Below are positions 1,075-41,907 of a DNA stretch of 48,170 nucleotides, piece by piece. The notes under the pieces are model-generated. The model saw only the letters and a program-made list of their open reading frames with translations. It was not told the origin of the DNA and made no database searches. Position numbers and translations under genes: made by a program. The stretch is taken from the NCBI GenBank assembly GCA_017518975.1, contig JAFWTH010000099.1, positions 1 through 48,170 on the forward strand, read 5' to 3'. How positions within the stretch are numbered: position 1 is the first letter of the stretch; each line of letters starts with the position of its first letter. Source of the stretch: Clostridia bacterium (GTDB lineage: Bacteria; Bacillota; Clostridia; Oscillospirales; CAG-272).

Positions 1075-2337
1075 TCACACCCCCGCGATCGATACCGTGA
1101 CGGGGCCCGTCACGTCTTTGAGGTCCGTTTTTTTCAGGATCACGTCCTCCATTTCGGAGGGAACGGTGATCCTTCTCTTTTTGGTGAGGATCGTCCGTCC
1201 GTTCGAGGATACGACGATCGCGCAGGATCTGTAAACGTCCCTTACGCGGAATCTCAGATGGATGAGATCGTCGCAGAACTCCCGGTCCACGGTCGACGGA
1301 ACGGTATATCTGACGCCGTCGCCGGGTTCGATCTTCACGACGCTTTCCTCCGATTTTTCGGCGGATCCGCCGAGATATCTCGCGGCGGCGGCTCCGGCTC
1401 TTTCCGACTCTTCGGAGACGAAGTCGACGAGGTCGTGAACGTGCAGGACGTTTCCGCACGCGAAGACGCCTTCCACGTTCGTCTCGAGCCGGTCGTCGAC
1501 GAACGGGCCGTTCGTGACCGGGTTGAGCTTTACGCCCGCAGTGAGCGACAGCTCGTTTTCGGGGATCAGCCCGCACGACAGAAGGAGAGTGTCGCACTCG
1601 ACAAACTCCTCCGTCCCCGGAACGGGAACGCTGTTTTTGTCGACTTCGGCGACGGTGACGCCCTCGAGTTTGCGTTTTCCTTTGATATCGACGACGGTAT
1701 GTGAGAGCAGAAGCGGGATCCCGTAGTCGTCGAGACATTGAACGATATTTCTCTTGAGCCCGCCCGAATAAGGCATGAGCTCCGCGACGAGTTTGACCTC
1801 GGCGCCTTCGAGCGTCATCCTTCTCGCCATGATCAGCCCGATATCGCCCGAGCCGAGGATGACGACCTTTTTGCCCGGGATGAATCCGTCGCAGTTGACG
1901 AGCTTCTGCGCGGCTCCCGCCGTGTAGATCCCCTGCGGACGGGTACCGGGGATGTTGAGCGCCCCGCGGGGACGCTCGCGGCAGCCCATCGCGAGGATGA
2001 CGGCGTCCGCTTCGATCACGAACAGACCGCGCGCGCGGCTCACCGCCGTGATCTTCTTGTCCTCCGAGATCGAGAGGACCATCGTCCCCGTCTCGTATCT
2101 TATTCCGAGTTCCTTGACGCGCTCGATATATCTGCTCGCGTATTCGGGGCCGGTGAGTTCTTCCTTGAACGTGTGAAGACCGAATCCGTTGTGTATGCAC
2201 TGGTTGAGGATCCCTCCGAGCTCCGTATCGCGCTCGAGGATCACCATATCGCGGACTCCCGCTTCATACGCGCCGATCGCCGCGGCCATCCCGGCGGGAC
2301 CGCCGCCGATGATCGCGAGTTTTACTCTCTCAGCCAT
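1075..2337 (-). CDS. NAD(P)/FAD-dependent oxidoreductase (GlpB-position subunit)
   Basis: A 420-residue flavoprotein. It has an N-terminal FAD dinucleotide fold (GGGPAG, residues 11-16, with the Glu-ended strand VILERD after it), a second NAD(P)-binding fold (GSGDIG, ~160), an AMGCRERPRG segment between them, and a C-terminal FAD motif (VFACGNVLHVHD). This is the pyridine-nucleotide-disulfide-oxidoreductase architecture without the classical CxxxxC active site. It overlaps the end of the GlpA-like gene by 8 bases and precedes DUF1667. In this three-gene arrangement it is commonly annotated as part of an anaerobic glycerol-3-phosphate dehydrogenase-like complex, but the true substrate here is not proven. 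Confidence 0.85.
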   Translation of the reverse strand: MAERVKLAIIGGGPAGMAAAIGAYEAGVRDMVILERDTELGGILNQCIHNGFGLHTFKEELTGPEYASRYIERVKELGIRYETGTMVLSISEDKKITAVSRARGLFVIEADAVILAMGCRERPRGALNIPGTRPQGIYTAGAAQKLVNCDGFIPGKKVVILGSGDIGLIMARRMTLEGAEVKLVAELMPYSGGLKRNIVQCLDDYGIPLLLSHTVVDIKGKRKLEGVTVAEVDKNSVPVPGTEEFVECDTLLLSCGLIPENELSLTAGVKLNPVTNGPFVDDRLETNVEGVFACGNVLHVHDLVDFVSEESERAGAAAARYLGGSAEKSEESVVKIEPGDGVRYTVPSTVDREFCDDLIHLRFRVRDVYRSCAIVVSSNGRTILTKKRRITVPSEMEDVILKKTDLKDVTGPVTVSIAGV

Positions 2338-3742
2338 TCTTCTTCACCTCCCCGTACGGGATACCGAGTTCCCGCGAGAGGATCGCGATAACGCGGGGCG
2401 AACAGAAACCGGACTGACATCTGCCCATTCCCGCGCGGACGCGTCTTTTCACTCCGTCGAGCGTCGTCGCTCCGAGGGGACGCCTTATCGCGTCGAGGAT
2501 CTCTCCCTCGCTCACGCCTTCGCAGCGGCATATTATCTGACCGTAATCGGGTTTTTTCTTTATATATTCCGCGCGTTCCGCGTCGCTCATATGGGACAGA
2601 CGCGGGACCCCGCGCCTGACGGGATCGAAGTTTTCGTTTTCTTCAAGCGACAGCGCGTCGCAGACCGTTTTCGCGACCGCGACGCCTATGGCGGGAGCGG
2701 ACGAGAGTCCGGGGGACTCTATGGCAGCCGCCTCGAAATAACGCTTTACCTTTTCGTCCTCGCGGATGATGAAATCGCCCGTGTCGCCCGTCGCGCGCAG
2801 ACCCGCGAACGACGTGATGACGAGTTTGTACGGTATATTTTTCACGTTGAGCGCGCTTTGTTCCTTCAGTTTGCCGATCCCCGCGCCCGTCGTCGCCGTG
2901 TCCTCCGGATCGTCGACGGCCTCGGCGGTCGGACCGACCATAAGGTTCCCGTGGACCGTCGGAGTGACGAGAACGCCCTTGCCCTGTTTCGACGGCGTGC
3001 CGAATACGGTGTGCGAGACGGTCCCGCCGGCGTTTTTGTCGAGGAGGAGATATTCGCCCCTTCTCGGAGTTATCGTATAGTCGGGCTCCGCGATCATTTC
3101 TCTGATCTTTGCGGCGAACACGCCCGCGCAGTTGACGACGGCGCGCGCCCGGTATTCGTTACCCGCGGCGGTGAGCGTGAATCCGTCTCCGTCGCGTCCG
3201 ATCGCGGTGACTTCGCTGTTGAGTCTGAAGACGACGCCGTTCTTTACGGCGTTCTCGGCAAAGCCGAGCGTCAGCTCGAACGGGCAGACGATACCCGACG
3301 AGGGGCAGAAAAGAGCGGACGTGACATCGTCCGACAGACCGGGCTCGATTTCTCTCGCCTCGTCGCCGGAGAGGATCCGGAGATCCTTTACTCCGTTTTT
3401 CTCCCCGCGTCCGAAAAGTTCTCTGACCGTTTCGTCTCCTTCCTCGGAACGGGCGACGACGAGCGCGCCGATCCTCTTGAAAGGAACGTCGAGTTCTTCG
3501 GATATTCTGTCCATCATCGCGTTGCCCTCGACGTTGTACTTCGCCTTGAGCGTGCCGGGCAGAGCGTCGAAACCGCCGTGGATTATGGCGCTGTTCGCCT
3601 TGCTCGTCCCCTCGCAGACGTCGCTTTCGCGCTCGAGCACGAGGATACGCGCTCGACGGCGGGAAAGTTCTCTTGCGACGGCGCATCCGATAACGCCCGC
3701 GCCGATCACGGCGACGTCGAAGAAGTTTTCTTTATCGATCAT
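2330..3742 (-). CDS. GlpA-like FAD-dependent dehydrogenase with BFD-like [2Fe-2S] domain
   Basis: A 470-residue protein of the DAO/GlpA family. It has an N-terminal FAD fold (VIGAGVIGCAVARELSRR, from ~13) followed by the substrate-binding DAO region (GFDALPGTLK, NCAGVFA). A C-terminal bacterioferritin-associated-ferredoxin-like domain carries four cysteines (C405, C407, C442, C447, in CRCEGVSEGE and GRCQSGFC) for a [2Fe-2S] cluster. The length and domain order match anaerobic glycerol-3-phosphate dehydrogenase subunit A and its many uncharacterised paralogues. It is the first gene of the operon, with an AAGGA-type ribosome site before ATG. No glpK or glpF lies nearby, so glycerol-3-phosphate as substrate is uncertain. 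Confidence 0.85.
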   Translation of the reverse strand: MIDKENFFDVAVIGAGVIGCAVARELSRRRARILVLERESDVCEGTSKANSAIIHGGFDALPGTLKAKYNVEGNAMMDRISEELDVPFKRIGALVVARSEEGDETVRELFGRGEKNGVKDLRILSGDEAREIEPGLSDDVTSALFCPSSGIVCPFELTLGFAENAVKNGVVFRLNSEVTAIGRDGDGFTLTAAGNEYRARAVVNCAGVFAAKIREMIAEPDYTITPRRGEYLLLDKNAGGTVSHTVFGTPSKQGKGVLVTPTVHGNLMVGPTAEAVDDPEDTATTGAGIGKLKEQSALNVKNIPYKLVITSFAGLRATGDTGDFIIREDEKVKRYFEAAAIESPGLSSAPAIGVAVAKTVCDALSLEENENFDPVRRGVPRLSHMSDAERAEYIKKKPDYGQIICRCEGVSEGEILDAIRRPLGATTLDGVKRRVRAGMGRCQSGFCSPRVIAILSRELGIPYGEVKKNG

Positions 3743-23463: not shown

Positions 23464-23493
23464 ACACTTTGCCGACGGGAAACCGGGGGCAAT

Positions 23494-23575
23494 GCGAGAG
23501 TGGCGGAACTGGCAGACGCGCACGTTTGAGGGGCGTGTGGTTCACACCGTACGGGTTCAAGTCCCGTTTCTCGCA
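23494..23575 (+). tRNA. tRNA-Leu (anticodon GAG)
   Basis: A complete class II tRNA of 82 bases. The acceptor GCGAGAG pairs with TTCTCGC; U8, the D-arm (GGAACTGGCAGAC), anticodon stem CGCAC/GGCGTG-type and loop with GAG, a short variable stem typical of Leu, the T-arm with TTCAAGT and discriminator A are all present. CCA is not encoded. Its own promoter precedes it and a terminator hairpin follows. Its 3' part is copied in inverted form just downstream. Confidence 0.95.
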
Positions 23576-23578
23576 TAG

Positions 23579-23608
23579 AAAAAGGGCACTCGAAGAAGTG
23601 CCCTTTTT
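23579..23608 (+). terminator. Intrinsic terminator of tRNA-Leu
   Basis: A 12-bp stem (23579-23590 / 23597-23608) with a 6-base loop and terminal T-run. The pairing continues outward without interruption into the tRNA acceptor sequence, giving 23 bp per arm (23568-23590 / 23597-23619). Confidence 0.88.
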
Positions 23609-23771
23609 CTATGCGAGAAATTGAACACGGGACTTGAAGGCGCCGCGTGTAAGCAAACAGTCCGGGGGACTGTTTGCCCGCGGCGTGACCGAGGGAGCGT
23701 CAGCATTTCGTATTTTGCGAAATGCTGACCCGCGCGACCGAGAACAAGTCCCGTCCGTACCGAAGGTACGG
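23597..23771 (+). repeat. tRNA-linked structured element, copy 1 (tRNA-Leu)
   Basis: After the terminator comes an inverted copy of the tRNA-Leu acceptor 3' strand (to 23619) and of its T-loop/T-stem (12 exact bases, 23627-23638), separated by 7 inserted bases. Then follow: hairpin 1 (23653-23663 / 23667-23677) inside an outer stem (23641-23647 / 23679-23685); a TGACCGAG box (23686-23693); hairpin 2 with loop TATTTTG (23699-23710 / 23718-23729); GAGAA and a direct 10-base copy of the T-arm (23745-23754); and hairpin 3 with a 3-base loop (23755-23761 / 23765-23771). The same order occurs beside tRNA-Ser. Confidence 0.8.
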
Positions 23772-23827
23772 CAAAAAGCGGATGAAACTTCAATTTGAGT
23801 TATTTTCAGATTTGAATGACAGTCCGG

Positions 23828-24022
23828 GGGTTGCGGACAGATAAACTTTTCCGTAATCGTTCGATACTGCTGTCCGCTCGAGTTTTGCGCATGAAGCGCA
23901 AAACTCCGGAAGAAACTGTATCTCTTCAGCCGAGCCCTGACCGAGCGCCCGTCATCCTTTCGTATTTTGCGAAAGGATGACTCGCGGGCGCGAGAATCAA
24001 GTCCCCCGCGCCAAAGGCGCGG
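23828..24022 (+). repeat. tRNA-linked structured element, copy 2 (no adjacent tRNA)
   Basis: A second, more diverged unit. It has a GCGGACAG/CTGTCCGC stem and a GAGTTTTGCGC hairpin, then a TGACCGAG box (23938-23945). Hairpin 2 has the same TATTTTG loop but a different stem (23951-23962 / 23970-23981). GAGAATCAAGTCCC follows, matching part of the Leu T-arm, then hairpin 3 (24006-24012 / 24016-24022). No tRNA precedes it, so it looks like a duplicated or orphaned copy. The left edge is uncertain. The 640 bases between tRNA-Leu and the next gene hold nothing else I can support. Confidence 0.65.
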
Positions 24023-41591: not shown

Positions 41592-41779
41592 TGATCCTGC
41601 AAAGCAGGATCAGAGGGATTCGATTCTCAGGGGCGCGAAGTCAATTTTCGCAAAATGCGAAAATTGACGCCCCTTCGGTCACGGCGCGGTTCTGACAGCC
41701 CCCCGGGCTGTCATTCATTACCGCACCGCTTCGAATCCCTCCCTTGCTCTCTCCGAAAGGAAAAAGGAGCCCACTTCGT
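41592..41779 (-). repeat. tRNA-linked structured element, copy 3 (tRNA-Ser)
   Basis: Read on the minus strand from the tRNA. First comes the right half of the terminator palindrome with an inverted acceptor copy (41747-41771). Then an inverted T-arm copy (12 exact bases, 41730-41741) and an outer stem (41720-41727 / 41683-41690) around hairpin 1 (41693-41713, loop 3). A GTGACCGA box follows, then hairpin 2 with loop CATTTTG (41640-41650 / 41658-41668). GAGAA and an 11-base direct T-arm copy come next (41613-41623), then hairpin 3 with a 3-base loop (41592-41612). Order and spacing match the tRNA-Leu copy while stem sequences differ. Confidence 0.8.
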
Positions 41780-41790
41780 GGCTCCTTTTT
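41759..41790 (-). terminator. Intrinsic terminator of tRNA-Ser
   Basis: On the minus strand a GGAGCC...GGCTCC hairpin is followed by five T residues. The pairing extends outward into the tRNA acceptor to give 25 bp per arm (41747-41771 / 41780-41804). Confidence 0.85.
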
Positions 41791-41795
41791 CCTTT

Positions 41796-41884
41796 CGGAG
41801 AGAGAGGGATTCGAACCCTCGAAACCGTTTTGCGATTTACGCGATTTCCAGTCGCGCGCCCTCGACCAACTAGGCGACCTCTCC
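41796..41884 (-). tRNA. tRNA-Ser (anticodon GGA)
   Basis: A complete class II tRNA of 89 bases on the minus strand. Acceptor GGAGAGG pairs with TCTCTCC, the D-arm is GCCTAGTTGGTCGAGGGC, the anticodon stem CGCGA/TCGCG has loop CTGGAAA (GGA), the long variable arm is typical of Ser, the T-arm has TTCGAAT and the discriminator is G. CCA is not encoded. Confidence 0.95.
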
Positions 41885-41907
41885 GTGCCCCCAATCGGAC
41901 GAGTGGT

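Follow-up and report, generated by a model that had tools for sequence, protein, structure and literature searches.

The window analysed here, a stretch of 48,170 nucleotides from a Clostridia bacterium (Oscillospirales; contig JAFWTH010000099.1 of assembly GCA_017518975.1), carries three copies of a hairpin unit, two on the plus strand downstream of a tRNA-Leu(GAG) gene and one on the minus strand behind a tRNA-Ser(GGA) gene. The tRNA-Leu gene (23493-23576, called by ARAGORN, with T54 to the 3' end at 23556-23576) is followed by its terminator hairpin (23577-23610, from the sequence), the reverse complement of the 3' end of the tRNA acceptor (acc', 23611-23619), a spacer ATTGAACA (23620-23627), which has ATTGA-like counterparts in many copies, and an antisense copy of the tRNA-Leu T-loop and 3' T-stem (T'', 23628-23638) that ends exactly at T54. 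The core of the first copy, referred to below as E (23639-23744, from the covariance-model match and covariation), comprises hairpin 1 (HP1, 23639-23685), the linker TGACCGA (23686-23692), hairpin 2 (HP2, 23693-23739) and GAGAA, and it is succeeded by a direct copy of the tRNA-Leu T-loop and 3' T-stem (CAAGTCCCGT, 23745-23754) and by hairpin 3 (23755-23771). Copy 2 starts with a left remnant of HP1 (23814-23830), in which a different palindromic element (GCGGACAG...CTGTCCGC, 23831-23929) is nested, and its remainder (23938-24005, a covariance-model match) consists of the linker, HP2 (23945-23991), GAGAA and the direct T copy (23997-24005), with hairpin 3 at 24006-24022. On the minus strand the tRNA-Ser gene (41795-41885, ARAGORN) precedes its terminator hairpin (41757-41794), acc' with the spacer CAAGGG (41741-41756), the antisense copy of the tRNA-Ser T-loop and 3' T-stem (T'', 41730-41740), E (41624-41729, a covariance-model match), the direct copy of the same part of tRNA-Ser (TCGAATCCCTCT, 41612-41623) and hairpin 3 (41592-41612).

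A first-pass annotation had described three units with a shared order of parts, and inspection of the sequence confirmed both the order and the positions, as well as perfectly paired HP2 stems with the loop TATTTTG or CATTTTG. A covariance model built from 23 relatives, with units 1 and 3 of the window in the training set and the interrupted unit 2 outside it, found exactly these three in the window (23630-23754 on the plus strand, 41614-41738 on the minus strand and 23908-24006 on the plus strand; E-values 1e-13 to 1e-36) and no fourth match with an E-value below 0.01. The description needed amendment in three respects. The stem-loop ascribed to the start of each unit holds for units 1 and 3, and unit 2 lacks an intact HP1 because the different palindromic element, at about 23831-23929, splits it. 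The HP1/HP2 units are real, but the module is larger than had been supposed, the antisense T-arm copy to the left of units 1 and 3 having been missed. The three hairpin 3 stems are present and perfect, but hairpin 3 is variable and is missing from most relatives outside the genus, where the direct copy is followed without a break by the acceptor end with CCA and then by a second terminator; it is adjacent to the conserved element and lies outside it. The palindromic element that splits unit 2 (GCGGACAG...CTGTCCGC plus a hairpin) has repeatedly become nested in HP1 or HP2 of E, at four further loci (L007, L002, L062 and L077) as well as in the window.

Comparison of tRNA flanks in the window's genome and in its relatives gave a rule for the layout of a locus: tRNA, terminator, in some cases acc', a short spacer (often ATTGA), T'', E and the direct T copy. 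The element is a folded stretch of roughly 70-110 bases of DNA, the core of which can be written as HP1, a YGACCRA linker, HP2 and GAGA or GCGA, with HP1 first in every copy inspected. In T'' the T-loop and 3' T-stem of the tRNA immediately upstream recur in reverse-complement form, so that E lies between an antisense and a direct copy (T3') of the same part of its own tRNA, and these two can therefore pair and close a three-way junction.

Structure, tailored flanks and distribution

The first-pass annotation had taken the paired changes as the mark of a selected single-stranded structure, and the stems do covary above shuffled controls. In the HP1 outer stem the count of own pairs was 6.19 of 7, against 4.94 (sd 0.15) for shuffled pairings, and the corresponding figures were 5.15 pairs against 3.96 (sd 0.17) for the HP2 outer stem and 7.04 of 8 pairs against 5.92 (sd 0.17) for the HP2 inner stem, the significance being overstated to some degree by the shuffles because the sequences are related. 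Double compensatory changes occur in 14 of 28 pairs (RNAalifold), most copies have a tandem G-A/A-G pair in the HP2 outer stem, where three have Watson-Crick pairs instead, and a G-to-A change in the linker is linked to the change of GAGA to GCGA (18 and 7 of 26). These observations support selection on a folded single strand, RNA and DNA not being distinguished by them. The module could not be matched to a named family at first pass, nor did comparison with Rfam 15 yield one, the score staying below the gathering threshold for every family; at a relaxed threshold only tRNA reached its gathering score, and the terminator region gave sub-threshold matches to microRNAs and sRNAs. The three-way junction and the CUGA..GA - stem - GA core of E recall the core of the hammerhead ribozyme, but E has extra core nucleotides, no NUH cleavage site and no Rfam match, and hammerhead identity was rejected on the last two grounds.

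The agreement between flanks and local tRNA was assessed at 52 non-identical tRNA-linked loci, selected by HP1 and not by their flanks, by shuffling the tRNAs among the loci 200 times. The antisense match to the local tRNA had a mean length of 11.7 nt, compared to 6.5 nt in the shuffles (sd 0.28, maximum 7.3), and the direct match a mean of 14.2 nt, compared to 6.4 nt (sd 0.15). The antisense copy ended at position 51-54, within 3 nt of T54, in 43 of 48 loci and the direct copy started at position 55-59 in 44 of 50, which puts the borders of the element at the 7-nt T-loop or slightly inside it, in inverted orientation. An exact 10-nt T'' was found within 200 nt behind 32 of the 112 tRNAs of four E-bearing genomes (G000, G001, G003 and G007) and behind none of the 61 tRNAs of two genomes without E (G004 and G005). 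Several loci of the genus are consistent with T'' having been copied by a complete fold-back of the tail across the terminator. Such copying is not general, because in many loci of relatives the stretch between the terminator and T'' is an unrelated A/T-rich spacer. At one tRNA-Ser(CGA) locus of G003 (L128) terminator, spacer and T'' are present and E is absent.

With the covariance model, 77 of the 245 genomes sampled from the order, belonging to 42 of 127 genera, proved to carry the element, and several orthologous positions are kept among relatives. The placement 3' of tRNA genes anticipated at first pass was upheld across the order, 20 of the 29 loci retrieved from other genera having a tRNA directly upstream in the sense orientation. 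By itself the 21-bp HP1 core is found across many phyla and is not specific to tRNA loci, its 128 distinct matches having 23 tRNA neighbours in sense and 2 in antisense; a Burkholderiales locus (L196) likewise follows a tRNA-Ser and repeats 19 nt of its tail as a direct copy, but has no clear T''. Several copies of E occur away from tRNAs, in CTTCCCC...GGTGTCAGCGAAGC-type repeats (L046, L049 and L051). At two loci (L050 and L052) an E-like sequence (HP1-like hairpins, GACCGA, an HP2-like hairpin and GAG) stands in frame near the start of an ORF, which we take to be TnpV-like, as if inserted into a coding gene, and the same 21-bp HP1 hairpin was seen in Rhodobacter/Paracoccus contigs (L201, L223, L234 and L236), by eye within an apparent ORF (..KQSGGLF..).

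Shared cores, filled and empty sites, and arrays

A near-identical E core lies behind tRNA-Thr, tRNA-Gln(CTG), tRNA-Val and, in interrupted form, tRNA-Gln(TTG) in the window's genome, and each copy is flanked by the T'' and direct copy of its own tRNA. Core similarity was 0.91-0.94 for the Thr, Val and Gln copies of G000 and 0.87-0.93 for the Leu, Ser, Glu and Arg copies of G007. Similarity among E cores follows both genome and tRNA, and different E types are found at the same tRNA among relatives. At tRNA-Leu(TAG), E is present in G003 (L056), where the tail and terminator are duplicated over 47 bp, and G000 has a simple site; at tRNA-Gln(TTG), E is present in G000 (L021) and the simple site is that of G003 and G007. 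There are also arrays, in which the repeated unit, R, consists of the tRNA tail, terminator, spacer and T''. The tRNA-Ser(TGA) locus of G007 (L152) reads R-E-R with a 77-bp R, a second array, at a different locus (L384), reads R-E-R-E-R', its last R' being devoid of spacer and T'' and running into unrelated sequence, and a third (L394) has two different E with a near-identical R between them.

Shared cores, filled and empty sites and arrays, taken together and as far as sequence comparison can indicate, favour insertion with duplication of R. Gain of E would be the parsimony reading, because empty sites could also come from recombination between two tails. It is possible that gene conversion homogenises E within a genome, and deletion between repeats is possible for single cases.

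Arrangements of a related kind were seen with other sequences. A different element forms tandem arrays behind elongator tRNA-Met (L099, L103 and L095), and in G003 the tRNA tail and terminator occur there in triplicate. Still other, unrelated palindromic elements have a direct copy of the adjacent tRNA's tail at their end (L026 and L138, Pro; L131, Asn; L027, Arg-CCT; L031, Trp; L039, Ala). The logic may therefore be common to several families.

Explanations and candidate enzymes

The findings favour a mobile element over a fixed regulatory RNA. In Clostridia E is probably a short, structured and presumably non-autonomous mobile element that uses T-loop half-sites to insert downstream of tRNA genes. 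Its copies seem to have spread from one tRNA to the next, with the tRNA tail doubled at each step. As to how this might happen, a nuclease or integrase may nick one strand 5' of T54 and the opposite strand at the inverted T-loop half-site. E, possibly in the form of a folded single strand held closed by T''/T3' pairing, would be joined to the ends so produced, and gap filling would then duplicate R, in the logic of CRISPR repeat duplication or casposon insertion, and thus leave the tRNA intact. For a tRNA that previously had no T'', the simplest idea is that T'' would arise as a short fold-back copy of the nicked T-loop. A fuller version, in which a transposition system moves a folded single-stranded element into tRNA T-loops, writes a target-complementary T'' at each insertion and so builds arrays resembling those of CRISPR, in which the tRNA tail serves as repeat, is put forward more tentatively, as a possibility that may well prove wrong in part or whole.

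The main rival is integration of small circles by T-loop tyrosine recombinases. The T-loop is one class of tRNA att sites, and the loci could be relics or satellites of tyrosine-recombinase elements. On this view small circles carrying E together with the 3' half of a tRNA and its terminator would recombine into the T-loop by a 7-nt crossover, tandem arrays would result, and E would correspond to the att-arm region. Element borders at T54 and within the 7-nt T-loop agree with such a class of sites, and the tandem R-E arrays with direct tRNA-tail copies at their far end resemble attL and attR. However, a fixed attP cannot give one E core at several tRNAs of a genome with flanks of its own at each, and E cores common to different tRNA isotypes are evidence against such circles; both flanks of E are, moreover, inverted half-sites, an integrase gene was seen in none of the units inspected, and units of about 70-160 nt leave no room for one. 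We regard this explanation as unlikely.

Still less probable is that E is a resident functional RNA of tRNA loci, for instance a regulatory RNA or trailer whose T'' segment has either the tRNA or the distal T copy as its pairing partner, multiplied by ordinary tandem duplication and gene conversion. The strong covariation, the conserved tandem G-A pairs, the linked change in the linker and GAGA/GCGA and the retention of several orthologous positions would all suit a resident RNA, but a DNA search gave no match to E in 6 of the 12 genomes of the genus, the same tRNA is occupied by different E types in relatives, E lies beyond the terminator, and copies away from tRNAs exist.

Two known kinds of mobiliser were considered, each with very little to commend it as a general explanation. 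In the first, E would be a retroelement moved in trans by a UG26 reverse transcriptase (RT), a bacterial analogue of a SINE. Within the genus the association is complete in one direction, all 6 genomes with E having an RT of moderate RVT_1 type (UG26 in those tested), and of the 6 genomes without E 4 lack an RT, the RVT_1 matches of the remaining 2 being stronger; this pattern can, however, be shared ancestry. Outside the genus UG26 fails as a universal mobiliser, being found in 1 of 22 other genomes with tRNA-linked elements, one whose element and RT match are near-identical to those of G001, and RVT_1 of any kind is missing from 15 of the 27 element-bearing genomes, some of which are incomplete metagenome-assembled genomes (MAGs). 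The RT that tracks E in the genus (L330-L335, e.g. L333 at 1114-2382, minus strand; UG26 where tested) adjoins a small ORF without a Pfam match in several genomes, and the G000 copy (L335) looks frameshifted; a separate G003 locus (L336) is a likely diversity-generating retroelement, with an RT beside an ORF that has, by eye, a lectin-like variable end. The second, that E is an ordinary REP palindrome mobilised by RAYT (IS200/IS605-like) transposases, would accommodate the short palindromes, the one GTAG-containing subtype and the intergenic and possibly intragenic positions, but it is scarcely credible and was rejected as a universal account, given that Y1 transposase shows no link with E among genomes of the genus and is missing from 16 of the 27 element-bearing genomes (some of them incomplete MAGs), that the Y1/RAYT genes retrieved all lacked an intact HP1 in their flanks, and that target-matched flanks do not appear in the available part of a REP survey (PMC3733652). 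MAG incompleteness weakens single absences, but not the overall RT/Y1 pattern.

Relation to known systems

By kind E is a short palindromic mobile element, and its tRNA anchoring, tailored flanks and repeat arrays separate it from REP, MITE and Rickettsia palindromic elements. In the part of the survey available, REP/REPIN and Rickettsia palindromic elements appear as short, structured, non-coding palindromes in multiple copies, sometimes within genes (PMC3733652). E shares the small size, structure, non-coding nature and copy number, but it differs in being anchored at tRNA T-loops, in its target-matched antisense and direct flanks, in its arrays and in the lack of a RAYT link, where a REP system has a cognate RAYT gene in the genome, usually with the repeats on either side of it. 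REP palindromes bear a GTAG or CGTC tag at one end; in E, GTAG is seen only in one subtype, within the HP1 internal loop. Like CRISPR arrays, those of E alternate near-identical repeats (R, with inverted ends) with inserted units, R being duplicated per unit, and have a degenerate last repeat and a fixed upstream anchor; unlike them, the repeat is a tRNA tail and terminator, and the units belong to one homologous structured family instead of being variable foreign spacers. Casposons likewise insert at a tRNA 3' end with target duplication, but their duplication is about 14-15 bp, whereas that of E is variable and about 47-83 bp, and E carries no enzyme gene. The neisserial NIME/dRS3 arrays also consist of short units separated by inverted repeats, but are neither tRNA-linked nor tailored to a target, and elements using tyrosine integrases at T-loops share the boundaries within the 7-nt T-loop, whereas E is not specific to one tRNA and has no integrase gene. 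Searches of open-licence papers brought up no description of palindromic elements behind tRNAs, although an earlier description may well exist elsewhere, and we know of no short bacterial palindrome for which target-matched flanks and repeat duplication at many different tRNAs have been described.

Since roughly one in three of the genomes sampled from the order contains the family, it bears on the annotation of tRNA loci and on genome plasticity. If the mobility reading is true, a novel enzyme would read the conserved T-loop and leave the tRNA functional, and the family may represent an independent parallel to the duplication of repeats in CRISPR and casposon systems.
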